From NCBI RefSeq assembly GCF_008629675.1, contig NZ_VWOX01000001.1, forward strand, positions 1 to 64,000: DNA of 64,000 nucleotides. Direction: 5' to 3'. Of this stretch, positions 3,282 through 16,005 are shown piece after piece (within the stretch, counting starts at the first letter, position 1; each line of letters opens with the position of its first letter). The stretch comes from Roseiconus nitratireducens (GTDB lineage: Bacteria > Planctomycetota > Planctomycetia > Pirellulales > Pirellulaceae). The notes beneath the pieces are model-generated. The model was not told the DNA's origin. It made no database searches and was given only the letters and a program-made list of their open reading frames with translations. A program made the position numbers and the translations under genes.

Positions 3282-4097
3282 TTAGAACTGTTTCGTCTTG
3301 TGTCGGATCACACCCAGACGGTCTCTTTCCTGGATCAATTGGGCAAGAATGCTGACGGAGATTTCCGGTGGCGTGTTGTTTCCCAGCGGCAGTCCGACGG
3401 GGCAGTGAAAGGAGGCTCGCGACTGTTCGGAGACGTCCAACTTTTCCAGATCACGCCGAAGCACCTTCGCTTTCTGCAGGCTGCCGATCACACCCACGTA
3501 GGGAGCCGTTTTGTTTTTCAGGATCTCCGCCAGAATCGGAAGGTCGGTCGCGTGACCCTGCGTCATCAGCAGGAAAAAGCTTCGCGAGTCCAACGGCTGG
3601 ACGTGGTCAGCTAACGTCTCGCCGCAAATTGCTTCCAGCCGCGGATGCGCCGGAAGTCTCGACAGCCAGTCCGTGCGTGTGTCGAGACACTTGACCGTGC
3701 AGGGCAGTTGAAGCAGCATCGGAATGAGACTCTGGGCGACATGGCCGGCCCCGAAGATGACGATCCTCCAATCCAGGCGATTGACGGCTTCAAACAGCAG
3801 CCGGACTTCACCGCCGCAAGTCATGCCGATTTCCGACTGCAGGTTCCAGGTGACCAATTGACAATCTTGCTGGGATGACGATTGCAGCATTGCTTGGGCG
3901 TGCCGAATCGCGCGGGCCTCCACTCGGCCGCCACCGATGGTCCCCGAGACCAAGCCGTCAGGTGTGACGACCGCCTTGGCGCCCACGACCTGCGGCGCGC
4001 TGCCACGGGCATCGGCCAAGGTCACCACGACAAACGGTCCGGCGTCATCCAACAGTTCCTGGACGATGCGCGCGTGCCTGTGGAAGTCGACCGGCAT
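3282..4097 (-). CDS. XdhC/CoxI family molybdo-hydroxylase maturation protein
   Basis: The 271-residue product has the two-part layout of XdhC proteins: an N-terminal segment with VVTLADARGSAP and a glycine-rich SGTIGGGRVEARA, and a C-terminal Rossmann-type domain beginning IVIFGAGHVAQSL. XdhC binds molybdenum cofactor, promotes its sulfuration and delivers it to xanthine-dehydrogenase-type enzymes. That fits its position: the divergent neighbour is a MobA/MocA-like nucleotidyltransferase (110-bp shared upstream region), and the hydroxylase subunits lie about 1 kb away. ATG start at 4097. Confidence 0.88.
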   Translation of the reverse strand: MPVDFHRHARIVQELLDDAGPFVVVTLADARGSAPQVVGAKAVVTPDGLVSGTIGGGRVEARAIRHAQAMLQSSSQQDCQLVTWNLQSEIGMTCGGEVRLLFEAVNRLDWRIVIFGAGHVAQSLIPMLLQLPCTVKCLDTRTDWLSRLPAHPRLEAICGETLADHVQPLDSRSFFLLMTQGHATDLPILAEILKNKTAPYVGVIGSLQKAKVLRRDLEKLDVSEQSRASFHCPVGLPLGNNTPPEISVSILAQLIQERDRLGVIRHKTKQF

Positions 4098-4207
4098 GTC
4101 TGCCGCACCTCGGCTGATAAGACTCGGCTGGTAAGATACGAGATCAACGTTTCTCGCACTGGCGAAATCGTTTCAGCAAGTCTAACGAAACTGTCGCACC
4201 GTCTGCC

Positions 4208-4804
4208 ATGTCCTCGCAAGCATTCTTCGCCATCGTTCCCGCCGCGGGGGACAGTCGCCGGATGGGACGCAATAAGTTGATGTTGCCCTGGCAGGGCCGG
4301 CCGATCTTGCACCACGTATTGAGCGCCTGGCGGGCGAGCGATGTGGACGCGGTGTTGGCGGTCGTTCGAGCGGACGATGATCCGGTCCGAAGCGTGTGCC
4401 AGGAACTTGGGGTGAAGGTCTTGTGTCCCACGCCGCGACCGCGGGACATGAAGGAATCCATCCAACACGGATTGCGATTCCTGCAGGAAGACGCACAGCC
4501 GACGTCCGGGGATCGGTTTCTGATTGCTCCAGCCGACATGCCTCGATTGTCGTCGGATTTGATCAACCAGGTGGTCCGCGCCAGCAATGGCCGCGACGAA
4601 ATCGTCTTGCCCTGCTTTGGAGAGCATTTGGGGCATCCGGTCTCGCTGCCCTGGACGCTGGCGGCCGATGTGTTCGAGTTGCCCGAACATGCGGGGATCA
4701 ATCGTATCGTGTTCGAGCAGCGAAAGTTTGTGCTGGAGTTGCCGGCCGCCGAGATCCTCACCGATGTCGATACGCCGGAGGACTATCGCCGGTTGTGCGA
4801 TTAA
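4208..4804 (+). CDS. MobA/MocA-like molybdenum cofactor nucleotidyltransferase
   Basis: The 198-residue GT-A fold nucleotidyltransferase has the signature PAAGDSRRMGRNKLMLPW at residues 11-28 and the metal-binding APADMPRL near residue 103, with GHPVSLP further on. Members of this subgroup transfer CMP (MocA) or GMP (MobA) to molybdopterin; proximity to XdhC and to a hydroxylase that normally uses the cytidine dinucleotide form favours MocA, but CTP versus GTP use cannot be read from sequence. It is divergent from the XdhC-like gene and followed by the tandem repeat block. Confidence 0.82.
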   Translation: MSSQAFFAIVPAAGDSRRMGRNKLMLPWQGRPILHHVLSAWRASDVDAVLAVVRADDDPVRSVCQELGVKVLCPTPRPRDMKESIQHGLRFLQEDAQPTSGDRFLIAPADMPRLSSDLINQVVRASNGRDEIVLPCFGEHLGHPVSLPWTLAADVFELPEHAGINRIVFEQRKFVLELPAAEILTDVDTPEDYRRLCD

Positions 4805-4834
4805 GCGCGGCTGGAACTTCCATCACTTCGTCGC

Positions 4835-5186
4835 GGCTGTCGCCCCTCCGGGGCTGGTGGTGAAGGGGGCTCGTGAACCGGCGGCCGAGGCCGCCGGCAG
4901 GGAGCTGTCGCCCCTTCGGGGCTGGATGCGAGAAGGTTGCTCTTTTGGGGCTGGCGCGTGGAAGTGCTTGGTGGCCTTCAGGGGTCTGGGCGGTGAGGCG
5001 GCTGTCGCCCCTTCGGGGCTGGTGGTGAAGGGGGCTCGTGAACCGGCGGCCGAGGCCGCCGGCAGGGACCTGTCGCCCTTTCGGGGCTGGCTGCGAGAAG
5101 GTTGCTCTTTTGGGGCTGGTGCGTGGAAGTATTTGGTGGCCTTCGGGGGCTTGGACGGCGAGGCGGCTGTCGCCCCTTCGGGGCTG
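4835..5186. repeat. 165-bp tandem repeat, two full copies plus partial third
   Basis: Units begin with GGCTGTCGCCCC at 4835, 5000 and 5165, exactly 165 bases apart; the third copy stops after about 20 bases. Each full unit contains two copies of the short palindrome GTCGCCCCTTCGGGGCTGG, able to form a GCCCC-TTCG-GGGC hairpin, so about five hairpins lie between the MocA-like gene and the hydroxylase gene. The open frames read across it are repeat translations and not believed. The rest of 4805-5260 holds no gene. Confidence 0.9.
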
Positions 5187-5260
5187 AAGTCGCGGAATGT
5201 TTGTTGCCAGTTTTGGGGCGGGGCGCGAAGTGCAACTTGAAGCGGCGCTCGTCCGCCGCT

Positions 5261-7492
5261 TCAAGAGAGTCGCAGTGGCATGGAACGGCATCGCGTTCCG
5301 GTGGCAGCGAACAGTGCGTTGGCGACCGCCGGCGCGATGGCGATGATCGGTGTCTCGCCCGCTCCGACCGAGGGCAGGTCCGGTCGGTTCAACTGGACGA
5401 TGTTCAGCTTGGGCAGATCGCTCAATCGGGGAACGCGGTAGGAAGAGAAACTGGGATTGGTGATCTTTCCCTCGGAGAACTCGATCGATTCGGTCAGGGC
5501 GCCGCCCAGACCCATCATCAAGGCGCCGACCTGCTGGGCCCGCAGGTTGCGTGGGTTGTGAACGGCACCGCATTCGAACGCCTGGCAAACTTCCACCACG
5601 TGCAGTTCGCCGTCGCGGATTTCTACTTCGGCGCAGGCCGCCACGAACGATCCTTTCTCCGTTCCGCACGCCAATCCGACACCGCGTTGGTTCGGTTTTT
5701 CGCCTTGTCCCGTCTCCGCGACACGGCGCGGCCAATGGAACGCGTCGGCCGCGGCTTTCAGGACGTCCTTCAGGCGGCCGTCGGCCAGGTGACGCAACCG
5801 AAAATCCAACGGGTCCGCATCGCTCCGCGCGGCCAGTTCGTCCATCGCGGATTCTCTGGCAAACGTGTTCGCGGTTGAGGCGAGGGCGCGATACGACCCT
5901 TGGCGCAGGGGGGCGTCGCAGCGAACGAAGCGGGTGCTCCCGTGCGGAACTTTGTAAGGGGTTTCGATCGCGGATCCGCCGGAGTTGTAGTTGGTGAATT
6001 CCCAGAGACAAAGGTCTCCTGCGGCATCCAGTCCGGCGTGGACGGTGATCACGCCGGCGGGACGAAAGTAAGCCCACGTGAATTCTTCGTCTCGGGTCCA
6101 CCGCAATGAGACGGGACGCCCGGCAGCTTTGGCCAGTCGCGCCGCCTCCACGGCCGCTTCACCGGTGTGCTTTCCGCCGAATCCGCCACCGGTATCCGGC
6201 ACGATCACGCGGGCTTGCTGTGGAGACAGGCGAAACGTCTGGCACAGTTCGCCGTGAACGCGAGCAGGCTGCTGCGTGCCGGTCCACACGGTGAGCTGGT
6301 CGTCTTGCCACTGGGCGACCGCGGCACGCGGTTCCATCGGCGCGTGTTGGACGTAAGCGATTTCGTACTCACCGCGGACAGTCTGTTTTGCTTTGGCGGT
6401 TCCCTCCGCGGGGTTCCCCCACACGTCCCGACCGCGATCTCCTTGCGAGTCGCCGCTGCGTTTGAGTCGATCGAACAACTGGTCGCTGGGAAAGCTTGAA
6501 CCAGCTTTCCATTGACAAGTTGCCGCGATCGCGTCTCGCGCTTTGGCCGCCCGCCAGCTCGTTGGTGCGGCGCAGCCGATGAAATCTCCGTCGCGCACCA
6601 CGACCACGTCATCAAGCTGTTGCGCCGGCGTCAAGTCGACCGAGGCAAGGGTTGCTCCGTAGGAAGTCGGACGCAGCACCTTGCCATACAGCATGCCCGG
6701 CAGTTGGATGTCCGACGGGTACTTGGTCTGTCCGGTGACCACGGCTGGGCCATCGACCTTGTCGACACTGGTGCCCAGCACGCGCCAGCGATCGATGGGG
6801 ACGATCGACGCGTCTTCCGACGGGGCGGCATTCAACCTCTCCTGCAAGGCTTCGTCGCGGGCGAGTTCGGAGAGCGAAAGCTGTTGTTGGTCGCCACCGC
6901 GGAATACGCCTTCGGAATAGGTGACTTGTTCGGTGTTCAAGTCGAATTGCTCGGCGGCGAATTGATGCAGCAGGCCACGCAACGCGGCGGCAGCGTTGCG
7001 AACCCGCGGAACGGTGGATGGAGTCGTTCGGCTGCCGGCCGTGCCCCCGTCATCGGGACAGCGTTGCGTATCCGCCATGACCAGGCGAATGCGGTCGATT
7101 GGCAGGCCCAGTTCTTCCGCCGCGGCCTGGGACAGCTGCGTCCGCGCTCCCTGGCCGACCGACACCTTGCTGGTCAGCACGGTCACGATACCGTCGTCAC
7201 CCAGCTGGAACCTTTGTGACAAGAGCTCCTCGCGTCGTGCGGATCGGCCTCTTCGCTGAGCGTGGGCCGTTCGCGCCGAGACCGTGATCAGCAGCCCGGC
7301 ACCGACCACCTGCGTGAATTCGCGACGATTGGCAGCGAATCGATAGCGGGGCGGCTCGCGCAGTTCATAACGTTCCACTTCAAGTGGTTCGTCGTCGATC
7401 GACAGGTCATCGTTGCTGGGTGAGCGATCGATGAGGGGATCGGAGGACGGTGGATTTAGATCAGGGATCGGGCGGCGATGCGGTCGGGCCAT
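5261..7492 (-). CDS. Molybdopterin-binding large subunit of an IorB-like aldehyde/isoquinoline oxidoreductase
   Basis: The 743-residue product belongs to the xanthine oxidase superfamily, catalysing hydroxylation or oxidation of aldehydes or N-heterocycles with electrons passing to the 2Fe-2S partner. Family marks include GGGFGGKHTGE (cofactor binding) and the C-terminal VGAGETP with the expected active-site glutamate. The length and layout match the two-subunit IorAB type without an FAD subunit. A twin-arginine-like motif ANRREFTQVVG is at residues 54-64, followed by a hydrophobic stretch and an Ala-x-Ala region, so it is probably exported folded to the periplasm; the about 50-residue acidic extension before the motif is unusual. 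It follows the 2Fe-2S subunit gene by 57 bases, evidently one operon. Substrate unknown. Confidence 0.87.
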   Translation of the reverse strand: MARPHRRPIPDLNPPSSDPLIDRSPSNDDLSIDDEPLEVERYELREPPRYRFAANRREFTQVVGAGLLITVSARTAHAQRRGRSARREELLSQRFQLGDDGIVTVLTSKVSVGQGARTQLSQAAAEELGLPIDRIRLVMADTQRCPDDGGTAGSRTTPSTVPRVRNAAAALRGLLHQFAAEQFDLNTEQVTYSEGVFRGGDQQQLSLSELARDEALQERLNAAPSEDASIVPIDRWRVLGTSVDKVDGPAVVTGQTKYPSDIQLPGMLYGKVLRPTSYGATLASVDLTPAQQLDDVVVVRDGDFIGCAAPTSWRAAKARDAIAATCQWKAGSSFPSDQLFDRLKRSGDSQGDRGRDVWGNPAEGTAKAKQTVRGEYEIAYVQHAPMEPRAAVAQWQDDQLTVWTGTQQPARVHGELCQTFRLSPQQARVIVPDTGGGFGGKHTGEAAVEAARLAKAAGRPVSLRWTRDEEFTWAYFRPAGVITVHAGLDAAGDLCLWEFTNYNSGGSAIETPYKVPHGSTRFVRCDAPLRQGSYRALASTANTFARESAMDELAARSDADPLDFRLRHLADGRLKDVLKAAADAFHWPRRVAETGQGEKPNQRGVGLACGTEKGSFVAACAEVEIRDGELHVVEVCQAFECGAVHNPRNLRAQQVGALMMGLGGALTESIEFSEGKITNPSFSSYRVPRLSDLPKLNIVQLNRPDLPSVGAGETPIIAIAPAVANALFAATGTRCRSMPLRLS

Positions 7493-7549
7493 GGCGGACT
7501 TCCTGGGAGAAAGAGTTCCATTCGGATCTGGAACGGCAGGCGAGGCAGG

Positions 7550-8134
7550 CTAGCTTTGTTGCACTGCCTGCTGGACCGCGGCGAGAATGTTTTCGTAATT
7601 GCAGCAACGACAAATGTGCTGACTCATCTCAGCGACGATTTCATCGCGAGAAGCGTTAGGGCGTTCTTTTGCCAGAGCGACCGCCGTCATGATGTGGCCG
7701 GGGACACAGTAACCACACTGCATCGCCTGATGGTCCAGAAACGCTTGCTGGACGCCGTGCAATTGTCCGGCCTGCGCCAACCCTTCGATGGTTTGGACCT
7801 CGGTCCCGCCGACTTCACCAACGGAGGTGATGCAAGAGCGAGTGGGCACGCCGTCGACCAGCACCGTGCAGGCGCCGCATTCTCCTTCGCCGCAACCGAA
7901 CTTCGTCCCGGTCAGGTGGAAATCTTCGCGGAGGACGTCCAGCAGCGGTCGATCTGGATCGGTGTCGGCGGATTGTCGCTGTCCATTGATTTGCAATTCA
8001 ATCGTCTCTTCAGCCACCGATTCGTCCTCCGTCGGGTCAGGCAGGAAACGCCGCAGAAGTCTGGCAACCGCGTTGCCGGCAGTCGGCGCCGTGGTCACGC
8101 CGGTCCGGTCGATCATACCGCGCCGCGAAGTCAC
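7550..8134 (-). CDS. 2Fe-2S small subunit of the molybdo-hydroxylase (IorA-like)
   Basis: This is the electron-transfer subunit for the downstream large subunit. It has the plant-type ferredoxin cluster motif CGEGECGACTVLVDG followed by a fourth cysteine in TRSC, and the second all-helical cluster motif QCGYCVPGH...ICRCCNY near the C-terminus. No export signal was found, as is usual when the partner carries the Tat signal. The start is uncertain: GTG at 8134 or ATG at 8116, neither with a good ribosome binding site, and about 40 residues precede the ferredoxin fold. A different frame upstream (from ATG 8258) reads protein-like and may be a frameshifted or overlapping leader. Confidence 0.88.
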   Translation of the reverse strand: MTSRRGMIDRTGVTTAPTAGNAVARLLRRFLPDPTEDESVAEETIELQINGQRQSADTDPDRPLLDVLREDFHLTGTKFGCGEGECGACTVLVDGVPTRSCITSVGEVGGTEVQTIEGLAQAGQLHGVQQAFLDHQAMQCGYCVPGHIMTAVALAKERPNASRDEIVAEMSQHICRCCNYENILAAVQQAVQQS

Positions 8135-11267: not shown

Positions 11268-14168
11268 ATGTCATCGGTCCCCTATGGCGCCGCTCCGGCG
11301 ACGCCGCGAAAGAAGTACGTGCGTGCCGTCGGCCCACGACTTCGCAAACTGCTGTATTTCATTTTTGTCCTTGTCGCACTTTTATTTGCCAATTCCGGCT
11401 ATCTGGCTCTGATCACCTTTTTGGAATGGTTGCGCGATCAGACCTATCAGGATTTTTACTACCAATACATGTTCCTGGCTCACTTGGTGCTGGGGCTGGT
11501 TCTGATTGTGCCTTTGGTGGTTTTTGGTTTCGTTCACATGTGGAACACCAAGAACCGACGCAACCGCCGAGCGATTCGGATCGGTTACGCCCTGTTCGTG
11601 ATCAGCCTGTTGGTATTGATCACCGGGATTCTGTTGGTGCGAATCGGCGGGTTTGATTTGAAGCAGCCGCTGGCGCGCAACACGGTGTATTGGCTGCACG
11701 TGGCGTGTCCGCTTGCGGCGGTTTGGCTGTACTGGCTGCACCGCCTGGCCGGCCCGCGGATCAAATGGCGAATCGGCATGAGCTTTGCCGGAGTGGCCGG
11801 CGTGGCGATCGCGGCGATGGTGGTGTTGCAAATGCAGGACCCGCGGCAGTGGAATGCCGTGGGGCCGGAATCGGGAGTGAAGTATTTCGAGCCGTCGCTG
11901 GCACGGACATCCAGCGGCAATTTCATTCCCGCCGATGCATTGATGAACGACGCGTATTGCGTCAAGTGCCACGCCGATATCCACAAGGATTGGAGTGACA
12001 GCGTGCACCGCTTCAGTTCCTTCAACAATCCTCCGTACCTGGCCAGCGTCAGCGAGACCCGCGAAGTTTCGTTGGAGCGGGACGGATCAATCCAGGCTTC
12101 GCGTTGGTGTGCCGGCTGCCATGATCCGGTCCCGTTTTTCTCCGGGGCATTTGATGATCCGAAGTTTGACATGCTGCAGCACGCGACCGCCAAGGCGGGC
12201 ATCACCTGCACGGTGTGTCACGCGATCACGAATGTCAACAGTGTCCGCGGGAACGCCGACTACACGATCGAAGAACCCTTGCATTACCCGTTTGCCAGCA
12301 GCGACAACGCCGCGCTGCAGTGGATTAACAATCAATTGGTCAAGGCCAAGCCGTCGTTCCACAAAAAGACGTTCTTGAAGCCGTTTCACAAAACGGCGGA
12401 GTTCTGTTCGACGTGCCACAAGGTTCACTTGCCCCAGGCGCTCAACCACTACAAGGAATTCTTGCGCGGGCAAAACCACTACGATCCGTATCTGTTCAGT
12501 GGCGTCTCGGGTCACGGCGCGCGAAGCTTTTACTACCCGCCCAAAGCTGTCGACAACTGCAGCAAGTGCCACATGCCGTTGGTCGCTTCGAACGACTTCG
12601 GCGCCAAATTGTTTGACGATGCCGAAGAGCTCAGCGTGCACGATCACCTGTTCCCGTCGGCCAACACGGGCATCGCCTGGCTTCGCGATCGGGAGGGCAT
12701 CATCGCGGCGCACCAGGAGTTTTTGAAAGACGTGATGCGGGTGGACATTTTCGGGATCCGCAATGAAGGCGAAATTGACGGCGAATTGATCGCGCCGCTC
12801 CGTCCCGAGGTTCCCACCTTGCAGCCGGGGAACAAGTACCTGCTGGAAACCGTGATTCGCACCTTGAAGCTCGGGCACCTGTTCACCCAGGGCACCGTCG
12901 ACTCCAACGAGATCTGGTTGGATGTGACGGTCACCAGCGGTGATCGCGTGATCGGCCGCAGCGGGGCGATCGACTCGGAGAAAGGAAACGAAGTGGACCC
13001 TTGGTCCCACTTCGTCAACGTGTTCATGTTGGACAAGGACGGGAATCGAATCGATCGGCGGAACGCCCAGGACATCTTCACGCCGCTGTACAACCACCAG
13101 ATCCCACCGGGAGCCGGTCAGACCGTCCACTATGCTCTGGAGGTCCCCGATGACCTGACGGCGCCGGTGACGGTCGAATTGAAGCTGCAGTATCGGAAAT
13201 TCGATCAGCGTTACATGGATTTCGTCGCGAAGAAGAATGAGCAGTTGGGGCAAGTCATCCGCGGGCATCAGCCGGGACAAGACTATGTCAACGAACTGCC
13301 GATCACCACGCTGGCGGTGGACACCGTGACGTTCCCGGTCGACGGCGTCGACGCTCCGGTCGAGAACCAGCCGCGTGAAGTCCCGACCTGGCAGCGCTGG
13401 AACGACTACGGAATCGGCTTGCTCTTGAAGGGCAAGGCCGAACTTCGTCAGGCGGAAGAGGCGTTCAAGGAGGTGGAAAAGCTGGATCGCTGGGACGGCC
13501 CGATGAACCTGGCACGCGTGCTGAATGAAGAAGGCCGATTGGATGAGGCCGTCGAGGCACTCAATCGGGCCGAGCAATTCAGTGACGCGGAAGGGTTTCC
13601 GCGATGGACGTGGGCCTGGCTATCCGGCGCCGTGAACGCGCAGCAAGGACGCTTGGAGGAAGCCGAGCGGAACCTGCGCAGCGTGTTGGAAGATAGCACC
13701 GAAGACATGCAGCGGCGCGGCTTCGATTTTAGTCTGGACATCGAAGTGATCAATCTGCTGGGACGGACCCAGTTTGACCTCGGCAATGTGCGCGAACGCC
13801 AGCAGCGCGAGGAAGAAAGCCGACGCTATTTCGACGAAGCCATTTCGCGTTTCCAGAAGACGTTGGAGATCGATCCGGAGAATGTGACGGCGCATCACAA
13901 CCTGCAGCGGCTGTATGAGAAGCTTGGCGACAAGGAGAAGGCGGCCGAGCATCAGAGACTGCACCTGCGGTACAAACCTGACGACAACGCCAAGGGCCGG
14001 GCCGTGCGCTTGGCTCGCGAAAAGTACCCGGCGGCCAACCATGCCGCCGAAGCGGTGGTGATTTATCCACTCAACCGCGAAGCCCATGAATCGGAAACCA
14101 ATGAAACGAAAATCATCGCGATCGAAAACAGCCAGGAGGCGACCCATGTCGAAACCAAAGGCTCCTGA
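11268..14168 (+). CDS. Membrane-anchored pentaheme cytochrome c with TPR tail
   Basis: The 966-residue protein probably carries electrons across or along the cytoplasmic membrane. Five hydrophobic helices lie at about residues 29-51, 68-90, 104-126, 138-160 and 169-187. Helices 2 and 4 carry histidine pairs (H72/H90 and H144/H158) that could bind b-type heme. Five CxxCH motifs follow: CVKCH 231, CAGCH 281, CTVCH 314, CSTCH 380, CSKCH 431, arranged as in cytochrome c554-like proteins, then a beta-rich region and C-terminal tetratricopeptide repeats (about 715-930). The ATG at 11268 was preferred over GTG/ATG at 11217/11220 because AGGAA lies 8 bases before it. The stop overlaps the next gene by 23 bases, indicating translational coupling to the CRTAC1-like protein. 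The histidine-ligand idea is inference; the substrate is unknown. Confidence 0.85.
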   Translation: MSSVPYGAAPATPRKKYVRAVGPRLRKLLYFIFVLVALLFANSGYLALITFLEWLRDQTYQDFYYQYMFLAHLVLGLVLIVPLVVFGFVHMWNTKNRRNRRAIRIGYALFVISLLVLITGILLVRIGGFDLKQPLARNTVYWLHVACPLAAVWLYWLHRLAGPRIKWRIGMSFAGVAGVAIAAMVVLQMQDPRQWNAVGPESGVKYFEPSLARTSSGNFIPADALMNDAYCVKCHADIHKDWSDSVHRFSSFNNPPYLASVSETREVSLERDGSIQASRWCAGCHDPVPFFSGAFDDPKFDMLQHATAKAGITCTVCHAITNVNSVRGNADYTIEEPLHYPFASSDNAALQWINNQLVKAKPSFHKKTFLKPFHKTAEFCSTCHKVHLPQALNHYKEFLRGQNHYDPYLFSGVSGHGARSFYYPPKAVDNCSKCHMPLVASNDFGAKLFDDAEELSVHDHLFPSANTGIAWLRDREGIIAAHQEFLKDVMRVDIFGIRNEGEIDGELIAPLRPEVPTLQPGNKYLLETVIRTLKLGHLFTQGTVDSNEIWLDVTVTSGDRVIGRSGAIDSEKGNEVDPWSHFVNVFMLDKDGNRIDRRNAQDIFTPLYNHQIPPGAGQTVHYALEVPDDLTAPVTVELKLQYRKFDQRYMDFVAKKNEQLGQVIRGHQPGQDYVNELPITTLAVDTVTFPVDGVDAPVENQPREVPTWQRWNDYGIGLLLKGKAELRQAEEAFKEVEKLDRWDGPMNLARVLNEEGRLDEAVEALNRAEQFSDAEGFPRWTWAWLSGAVNAQQGRLEEAERNLRSVLEDSTEDMQRRGFDFSLDIEVINLLGRTQFDLGNVRERQQREEESRRYFDEAISRFQKTLEIDPENVTAHHNLQRLYEKLGDKEKAAEHQRLHLRYKPDDNAKGRAVRLAREKYPAANHAAEAVVIYPLNREAHESETNETKIIAIENSQEATHVETKGS

Positions 14169-16005
14169 GACGGACCGGTATGAAGAGGAGGAAGTCTTGC
14201 GGGACGACGCGGAAATCGGTCGCGCGTTCCGCCGGTCGTTGATTGCCCTGGTGGCGCTGCTGGCAATCGGTGCGGTCGCAGCGTTTTTGCTGTCTCGTCC
14301 CAAGCCGTCTCCGCCGGTGAAGGAAACCGAATTGGCCGAGGTCAAAACTCGCCAGTTGCCCGACGTGAAAGTGCCTTCGGTGACATTCACGGACGTGACC
14401 GAGCAGGCGGGAATCGATTTCGTGCACAACAACGGTGCCGTCGGGGACAAATTATTGCCCGAAACCATGGGCGGTGGCGTGGCGGCTTTGGACTTTGACA
14501 ACGACGGCGACCAGGACCTGCTGTTCGTCAATTCCCAGGATTGGCCGTGGGATTCGCCCAGCGACCGGTCGAAGTCATCGATGCTGTATCGCAATGACGG
14601 CGGGGAGTTCGTCGACGTGACCGAAGCGTCCGGATTGAAGCTGGCCGACTACGCGATGGGCGTGGCCGTGGGTGACTATGACAACGACGGCCGGGTCGAC
14701 GTTTTTATCACCAGCGTGGGTGCCAACCATCTGTTCCACAACCTGGGTGAGGGTCGATTCGAGGAGGTGACCGATTCGGCCGGAGTGGGTGGCGAGGCAA
14801 ATCGCTGGAGCACCAGTGCCGGTTGGTTTGACTACGACAACGATGGCGATTTGGACCTGTTCGTTTGCAACTACGTCCAGTGGAGCCGCGAGTATGACCA
14901 ATCACAGAACTTCCAACTGGTCGGGGGTGGACGCGCCTACGGTCGTCCGCAGAACTTCGAAGGGACGTTTCCCTACCTGTACCGCAACGACGGCGATGGC
15001 AAGTTCGTGGATGTCTCGGAAGAGGCTGGCGTGCAGGTCCGCAACGAAGCGACGGGCGTTCCGCTGTCCAAGTCGTTGGGGCTGGCGTTTTGCGATTTTG
15101 ACGCCAACGGGACCCTGGACGTGATCGTTGCCAACGACACCGTCCAGAATCTGCTGCTGCGCAACGACGGCGAGGGGCATTTCTCCGAAGTCGGTGCGTT
15201 AACCGGGATCGCGTTTGACAGTAGCGGAAACGCCCGCGGAGCGATGGGGATCGACGTCGCATCGTTTCGCGGACGCAAGGCGTTGGCGGTGGCAATCGGG
15301 AACTTTAGCAACGAGATGACCGCGCTGTATGTGACGCCGACCGGCCGCATGCAGTTCTACGACGAAGCGGTGTCGACGGGCTTGGGGCCCAGCACGCGGT
15401 TGCTGTTGACGTTTGGGCTGTTCTATCTGGACTACGATCTGGACGGTCGATCGGACCTGTTCTGCGCCAACGGGCACCTGGAAGAGGACATCAACCGCGT
15501 GCAGCCGAGCCAGCATTACGAGCAGCCGCCGCAAATGTTTTGGAACGCGGGGCCGAAGTACGGAACGGAGTTCCTGCCGGTCGGCCCGGAGCAGGTTGGC
15601 GAAGACCTGCTAAAACCGATTGCCGGTCGCGGGGCCGCCTACGCGGATTTTGATGGGGACGGTGATCTGGACATCGTGATCACGTCCACCGGTCGCGCGC
15701 CCCGTCTGCTGCGCAACGATCAGCAGTTGGGACATCACTGGTTGCGACTGAAGTTGCGCGGCGACGGAAAACAGTGCAACCGTGATGCGATCGGATCTTG
15801 GGTGGAGTTGACCGTCGGTGACGAAGTCTTGCGTCAACAAGTCATGCCGACACGCAGCTACCTGTCGCAGGTCGAATTGCCGATCACGTTCGGGCTCGGC
15901 GAGTCCGATCGCATTGATTCCATGGTCATCCATTGGGCAGACGGGCACCGGCAAGAGGTCGATCCGCCAGAGGTGGACCAAATGCAGGTGATCGAGCGGC
16001 AGTAA
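14146..16005 (+). CDS. CRTAC1-like FG-GAP/VCBS protein with ASPIC/UnbV domain
   Basis: The 619-residue protein has a short basic/acidic N-terminus, one transmembrane helix (about residues 32-50) and a predicted extracytoplasmic beta-propeller. At least six calcium-binding type repeats are visible, such as DFDNDGDQD, DYDNDGRVD, DYDNDGDLD, DFDANGTLD, DYDLDGRSD and DFDGDGDLD. The C-terminus resembles the UnbV/ASPIC domain (GxWVELTVGDEVLRQQV...YLSQVELP, then a GLG motif). The ATG at 14146 is preceded by a perfect AGGAGG six bases away and lies inside the cytochrome gene, so the two products are probably made together and may form a complex. Function of the family is unknown in bacteria. Confidence 0.88.
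   Translation: MSKPKAPETDRYEEEEVLRDDAEIGRAFRRSLIALVALLAIGAVAAFLLSRPKPSPPVKETELAEVKTRQLPDVKVPSVTFTDVTEQAGIDFVHNNGAVGDKLLPETMGGGVAALDFDNDGDQDLLFVNSQDWPWDSPSDRSKSSMLYRNDGGEFVDVTEASGLKLADYAMGVAVGDYDNDGRVDVFITSVGANHLFHNLGEGRFEEVTDSAGVGGEANRWSTSAGWFDYDNDGDLDLFVCNYVQWSREYDQSQNFQLVGGGRAYGRPQNFEGTFPYLYRNDGDGKFVDVSEEAGVQVRNEATGVPLSKSLGLAFCDFDANGTLDVIVANDTVQNLLLRNDGEGHFSEVGALTGIAFDSSGNARGAMGIDVASFRGRKALAVAIGNFSNEMTALYVTPTGRMQFYDEAVSTGLGPSTRLLLTFGLFYLDYDLDGRSDLFCANGHLEEDINRVQPSQHYEQPPQMFWNAGPKYGTEFLPVGPEQVGEDLLKPIAGRGAAYADFDGDGDLDIVITSTGRAPRLLRNDQQLGHHWLRLKLRGDGKQCNRDAIGSWVELTVGDEVLRQQVMPTRSYLSQVELPITFGLGESDRIDSMVIHWADGHRQEVDPPEVDQMQVIERQ

Follow-up and report, generated by a model that had tools for sequence, protein, structure and literature searches.

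A gene pair conserved in Planctomycetota encodes a predicted b561-like/pentaheme cytochrome c fusion and a CRTAC1-like partner

A pentaheme cytochrome c family comprising ExtKL and proteins of cable bacteria was described in 2025, its members having an Ig-like domain and one heme that is pentacoordinated and potentially catalytic, and structural similarity of these PHC proteins both to cytochrome c552 and to an archaeal cytochrome nanowire was reported (PMC11976967). In CbcL, MtoC and MtrH, one polypeptide unites a b-type domain in the membrane with a multiheme c domain and is predicted to act on the quinone pool; in CbcL the hemes come first and six transmembrane (TM) helices last, three conserved histidines are described, and CbcL-type proteins have been implicated in both directions of electron flow (PMC6295460). 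ImcH has three TM helices at its N-terminus, followed by 5-9 CX2CH motifs plus an atypical CX3CH, and no b-heme histidines are described for it. CRTAC1 genes adjoin hydrazine-synthase-like clusters in planctomycetes, beside multiheme proteins with a c554 domain (PMC12758564), which is the only association of CRTAC1 with cytochromes that we found in the literature. A search of the open-access literature returned no description of a complex of the two proteins reported here.

We analysed a 64,000-nt stretch of the genome of the marine planctomycete Roseiconus nitratireducens (GCF_008629675.1, NZ_VWOX01000001.1), referred to as the window, whose numbering is used for all coordinates. The features of the two-gene unit are listed in Table 1. 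Gene 1 is present in a single copy within the 8.2 Mb genome, and its TGA stop codon (14166-14168) lies beyond the ATG of gene 2, giving an overlap of 23 bp. An earlier note on this DNA had pointed out the five CxxCH motifs, the five TM helices, the histidine pairs 72/90 and 144/158 and the TPR tail of gene 1, as well as the 23-bp overlap and the perfect ribosome binding site in front of an FG-GAP/ASPIC gene, and all of these are confirmed; it did not mention the Ig-like domain of gene 1 or the membrane anchor at the N-terminus of the gene 2 product. This domain anatomy and the pairing of the two genes are firm. The locus is not a product of chance, since homologues at 50-90% identity are found in dozens of genomes, the heme motifs are invariant and the TM histidines persist in distant relatives.

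Table 1 Features of the two-gene unit (coordinates of the window)
Feature	Position	Strand	Basis and remarks
Gene 1: membrane b561-like domain, pentaheme c domain, Ig-like domain and TPR tail	11268..14168	+	966 aa from ATG
Five TM helices, b-type cytochrome-like four-helix core	11334..11834	+	aa 23-189, predicted model
His72, TM2, candidate b-heme ligand on the periplasmic side	11481..11483	+	128/129 sequences, the other a gap; aligned with Dcytb His86
His90, TM2, candidate b-heme ligand on the cytoplasmic side	11535..11537	+	127/129 sequences; one gap, one Gly
His144, TM4, candidate b-heme ligand on the periplasmic side	11697..11699	+	128/129 sequences, the other a gap; aligned with Dcytb His159
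His158, TM4, candidate b-heme ligand on the cytoplasmic side	11739..11741	+	127/129 sequences; one gap, one Ala
Pentaheme c domain	11880..12722	+	aa 205-485; CxxCH at 231, 281, 314, 380, 431
Ig-like beta domain with invariant GHxFxxG (His537)	12735..13337	+	aa 490-690; beta strands in model
TPR solenoid	13386..14027	+	aa 707-920; Pfam TPR at about 716-906; fold matches
Shine-Dalgarno AGGAGG of gene 2	14134..14139	+	Sequence; 6 nt 5' of ATG 14146
Gene 2: membrane-anchored FG-GAP/UnbV_ASPIC (CRTAC1-like) protein	14146..16005	+	619 aa; conserved Asp-rich loops

The TM helices of gene 1 span residues 23-56, 63-94, 100-123, 134-160 and 167-188 in the predicted model. The four intramembrane histidines are kept in all 32 distant relatives (two classes of 16, at ~30-40% identity) and in 95-96 of the 97 closer ones, among which a single row is gapped at all four positions and His90 and His158 are substituted in one row each. 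Their spacings of 18 and 14 residues are retained in the distant family (H60/78/129/143). In the model, TM2 and TM4 each have one histidine 9-10 residues from the helix start and another near the helix end, at matching depths in the two helices, and rotations of 0 and 320 degrees bring both histidines of TM2, and likewise those of TM4, onto one helix face. A placement on opposite faces, which the earlier note had named as an argument against its proposal, is thus not what the model gives, and the arrangement of two axial His pairs on two helices is that of diheme b561-type proteins.

Fold searches with full-length gene 1 returned TPR proteins alone, and residues 1-500 were therefore modelled separately. 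With VIA-align, the 13 best matches of this model all align the TM part with diheme b cytochromes (Z 9.5-10.4, ~140 residues), with cytochrome b6, HyaC, superoxide oxidase and FdnI in the top ranks and bc1 cytochrome b lower; a Z of about 10 does not by itself settle the case for a helical bundle, and a designed four-helix bundle reached 9.2 and channels ~7 in the same search. With Foldseek, no match of the same model reached an E below 1, and the window protein has no Pfam match to a b cytochrome. Distant members show weak Pfam matches to DUF4405 (11 of 22, best 2e-5), to the prokaryotic b561 family Ni_hydr_CYTB (3e-4) and to eukaryotic b561, member 1 falling under both curated cut-offs (DUF4405, Ni_hydr_CYTB). 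Distant members also match Dcytb at 0.015, and the two Dcytb residues on which His72 and His144 fall are histidines that we take to bind the same heme. The near-invariant histidines, their placement on one face, the fold matches (b6f, FdnI, HyaC, superoxide oxidase, bc1) and the weak b561-type profile matches support the b-type membrane domain suggested in the earlier note, and by profile and predicted fold a b561-type relationship of this domain is likely. Positive charges are found at the N-terminus and in the loops after TM2 and TM4, which points to a cytoplasmic location of these segments and thus to c hemes on the periplasmic side. Maturation of c-type cytochromes takes place in the periplasm.

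For the c domain, a profile of 25 members (aa 201-700) matched the pentaheme cytochrome c552 of T. tepidum (5ze8) at E 7.4e-11 and MccSep at 9.7e-5. The confident segment of the c552 match covers hemes 1-3, with heme 5 and the Ig-like motif in order but weakly aligned, and the Ig-like domain aligns weakly with c552 and MccSep at the equivalent place. The VIA-align comparison of the model with 5ze8 (Z 9.4, 4.4 A, 207 residues) lies just moderately over the middling range of the tool, and the pLDDT of the gene 1 model is <60 around residues 370-430. The NCBIfam ExtKL model is matched by 25 of 42 members, the window protein being under its cut-off. Gene 1 thus has five c-heme motifs in one domain, kept in its homologues, together with a sequence relationship to c552/ExtKL and the same fold, and there is moderate evidence that the domain belongs with the PHC family (T. 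tepidum c552, ExtKL/MccSep). The earlier note had called it c554-like; its multiheme nature stands, whereas a plain c554 label was rejected (1bvb, E 0.006 versus 7e-11 for c552) in favour of the pentaheme c552/ExtKL group. Four histidines outside the CxxCH motifs are invariant family-wide and are candidate distal ligands, namely His247, His365, His460 and, in the Ig-like domain, His537 (129 of 129 sequences). With four such residues for five hemes, one heme may be open.

Gene 2 carries FG-GAP repeats (FG-GAP_3, E 4.5e-37) and a C-terminal UnbV_ASPIC domain above cut-off (E 1.4e-18), the combination that defines UnbV_ASPIC/CRTAC1 proteins, and its Asp-rich loops are presumably of the calcium-binding type, as in FG-GAP repeats. 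A hydrophobic N-terminal segment is present in gene 2 and in 78 of 84 CRTAC partners, which suggests that the product is probably a periplasmic protein anchored in the inner membrane, instead of the surface propeller proposed in the earlier note.

Of 134 loci of gene 1 homologues with 700 nt or more of contig, 124 have a CRTAC gene directly downstream in the same orientation, down to ~30% identity; near-identical relatives are included in this count, so that the loci cannot be taken as independent. All four similarity classes show the pairing (63/67, 33/35, 12/16 and 16/16 loci), and the median distance from the gene 1 stop to the nearest possible CRTAC start codon downstream is 8 nt. As the whole genome of the window contains 14 ASPIC genes, chance adjacency is negligible. 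The conservation of the partner across Planctomycetota that had been proposed as a check is therefore borne out, and the other counter-argument of the earlier note, homologues without the histidines and the CRTAC partner, did not apply either. In two genomes of the same genus, the diverged cytochrome copies (L159 and L160) have CRTAC partners that are mutually closest (0.68, versus 0.51 to the CRTAC of the window), and the cytochromes show the matching pattern (0.72 and 0.54), so the examined pairs stay together after duplication. Alignment distances of the two proteins correlate with r 0.96 (0.94 in close members), a value confounded by species phylogeny and no proof of interaction. One subfamily, comprising four members of the 33-40% class (L123, L124, L125 and L130), has five CxxCH motifs and the four TM histidines with no CRTAC downstream, and provides a natural contrast for what CRTAC does.

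The pair does not extend to a larger operon, as no third conserved gene was found and no other neighbour family occurs in more than 13 of ~82 loci; the most frequent neighbour cluster (13 of ~82) is encoded on the other strand and resembles antisense ORFs. In the window, the region upstream of gene 1 (3285-8134, minus strand) encodes, on the opposite strand, an XdhC-type maturation protein, a molybdenum hydroxylase large subunit and a 2Fe-2S subunit.

The TPR tail varies within the family. A median of 263 and 238 residues follows the core in the closer classes, corresponding to the TPRs, and a median of 27 in the most distant class, which leaves no room for them. This distant subfamily (L138-L153) has a CxxxxCH motif at heme 1, so that five sites are kept although its CxxCH count is four. 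Since it is without TPRs yet has an adjoining CRTAC in 16 of 16 testable loci, the TPRs are accessory, and the scaffolding role that the earlier note had given them is not essential.

Gene 1 is present in 13 of 13 sampled genomes of the same genus, at 56-89% identity. Among relatives, some match was found in 46 of 60 genomes (the own genome included) and a strong match in 36 other genomes. When the phylum was sampled evenly, 83 of 294 genomes contained a homologue with E < 1e-30. Among named relatives, Rhodopirellula and Stieleria are the nearest. Outside the phylum the gene is seemingly rare: in the phylum to which a Verrucomicrobia-labelled record belongs, 4 of 194 genomes have it, and homologues occur on one contig each with the labels Gammaproteobacteria, Latescibacterota and Myxococcales, these labels being those of MAG records. 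Two contigs labelled Candidatus Kuenenia stuttgartiensis (L058 and L080) carry homologues at ~65% identity, possibly through an error of binning or naming, and are not taken as anammox evidence.

We consider it probable, with some reservation, that genes 1 and 2 encode one respiratory-type redox unit. Gene 1 would be an inner-membrane protein with five TM helices and, between them, two bis-His b hemes, which we infer to be bound by His72/His144 near the periplasm and by His90/His158 near the cytoplasm. These hemes would pass electrons to, or receive them from, the periplasmic PHC-type pentaheme part with its Ig-like domain, while the membrane part would trade electrons with the (mena)quinone pool. 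The quinone link of the membrane domain is probable, as two b hemes across the membrane and c hemes outside correspond to the layout of quinone-linked electron transfer. The c hemes would in turn trade electrons with a periplasmic partner, or with a substrate at the heme with a possible open site, and the gene 2 product, tethered to the same membrane, may dock on the cytochrome in a putative complex and organise or protect its contact with the electron partner. Against this reading we count that no quinone-site residues were identified in gene 1, that the sister loci hold no conserved third gene to name a substrate, that the c552 profile is strong for the first three hemes alone and that some members are without CRTAC.

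Electrons from quinol could also end at the c domain itself. In such a reductase, a five-coordinate c heme would reduce a small periplasmic substrate and CRTAC would help assembly, a scenario which we regard as rather unlikely while giving it real weight: the number of invariant distal candidates and the pentacoordinated heme described for PHC proteins (PMC11976967) suit it, and the selenocysteine of MccSep is located just after the GHxxxxG motif. However, histidines 374, 404, 458 and 581, conserved in close relatives, could fill the site, and the MccSep residue (Sec325) corresponds to Thr543 of gene 1, in a weak alignment. A periplasmic oxidase that feeds the quinone pool is an unlikely reading. 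Its c domain would take electrons from a periplasmic donor and its b hemes would carry them inward to reduce menaquinone at the cytoplasmic side, like FdnI or HyaC, in a proton-motive redox loop. Two b hemes across the membrane and the FdnI and HyaC fold matches suit such inward transfer, and cultured Rhodopirellula and Stieleria are among the organisms that carry the family, but no dehydrogenase gene is conserved beside the pair and descriptions of the PHC relatives call them low-potential or EET-associated proteins (PMC11976967). That the TM helices are a mere anchor with structural histidines, the working part being the soluble pentaheme protein and its propeller, seems improbable; heme b is invisible in sequence and the window protein gives no b-cytochrome Pfam match, yet the four histidines persist down to ~30% identity, and the b-cytochrome fold matches and the b561-type Pfam matches of relatives also speak against it.

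If the redox unit is as we favour, it would have consequences for how these bacteria respire, because an extra quinone-linked route would matter in a genome without detectable bc1 cytochrome b: PF00033 and PF13631 found none in the own genome (controls worked; the assembly is 93% complete), which encodes three NrfD proteins. In addition, CRTAC1/ASPIC proteins are numerous in such genomes with no known job found, and one set of them now gains a defined partner and a redox role that can be tested. A further CRTAC-redox cluster, running in one direction, is present in the own genome (contig C75, L162:2102-10457) and comprises, with ORFs named by eye, a NapH/NosR-like 4Fe-4S membrane protein, a 1163-aa TPR-CRTAC hybrid, a 628-aa CRTAC and an RnfD/NqrB-like ORF. 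Elsewhere (L163:5410-11339, and C108:272-288 kb of the own genome), a TPR-containing multiheme cytochrome stands beside an opposite-strand TPR-ASPIC gene within a run of several ASPIC genes.

Compared with the hydrazine-synthase-like clusters (PMC12758564), the present pair has another cytochrome, another gene order and a b domain, which those lack. With the PHC family (T. tepidum c552, Geobacter ExtKL/MccSep and the sPHC/lPHC of cable bacteria; PMC11976967) gene 1 shares the five c hemes and, C-terminal to them, an Ig-like domain that carries a motif of the GHxxxxG type, whereas descriptions of the members known so far place them in the periplasm and mention no b-type membrane domain, TPRs or CRTAC partner like those found here. 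The TM domain is predicted to share the bis-His four-helix fold of cytochrome b561, DUF4405, FdnI, HyaC and b6, and no curated family covers this domain of the window protein. Gene 1 is not a member of the CbcL/MtoC/MtrH group, as its domain order is reversed, with five TM helices first, four histidines, a PHC-type c domain and a TPR tail; nor does it belong to ImcH, with which it shares N-terminal TM helices followed by c hemes, as it has five TM helices and all five of its heme motifs are CX2CH. By analogy, CbcL and ImcH appear to be its nearest working counterparts, with a different domain order and TM count. Gene 1 would also tie the PHC family, including relatives of archaeal cytochrome nanowires (PMC11976967), to a quinone-facing membrane domain. 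We tentatively suggest that, beside CymA, CbcL and ImcH, the pair could represent a further inner-membrane, quinone-linked multiheme oxidoreductase family. Common in Planctomycetota, this family would combine a fusion of PHC-type and b561-like diheme parts with a dedicated CRTAC1 propeller, and would perhaps connect menaquinone with an acceptor in the periplasm or outside the cell, or bear a catalytic heme.
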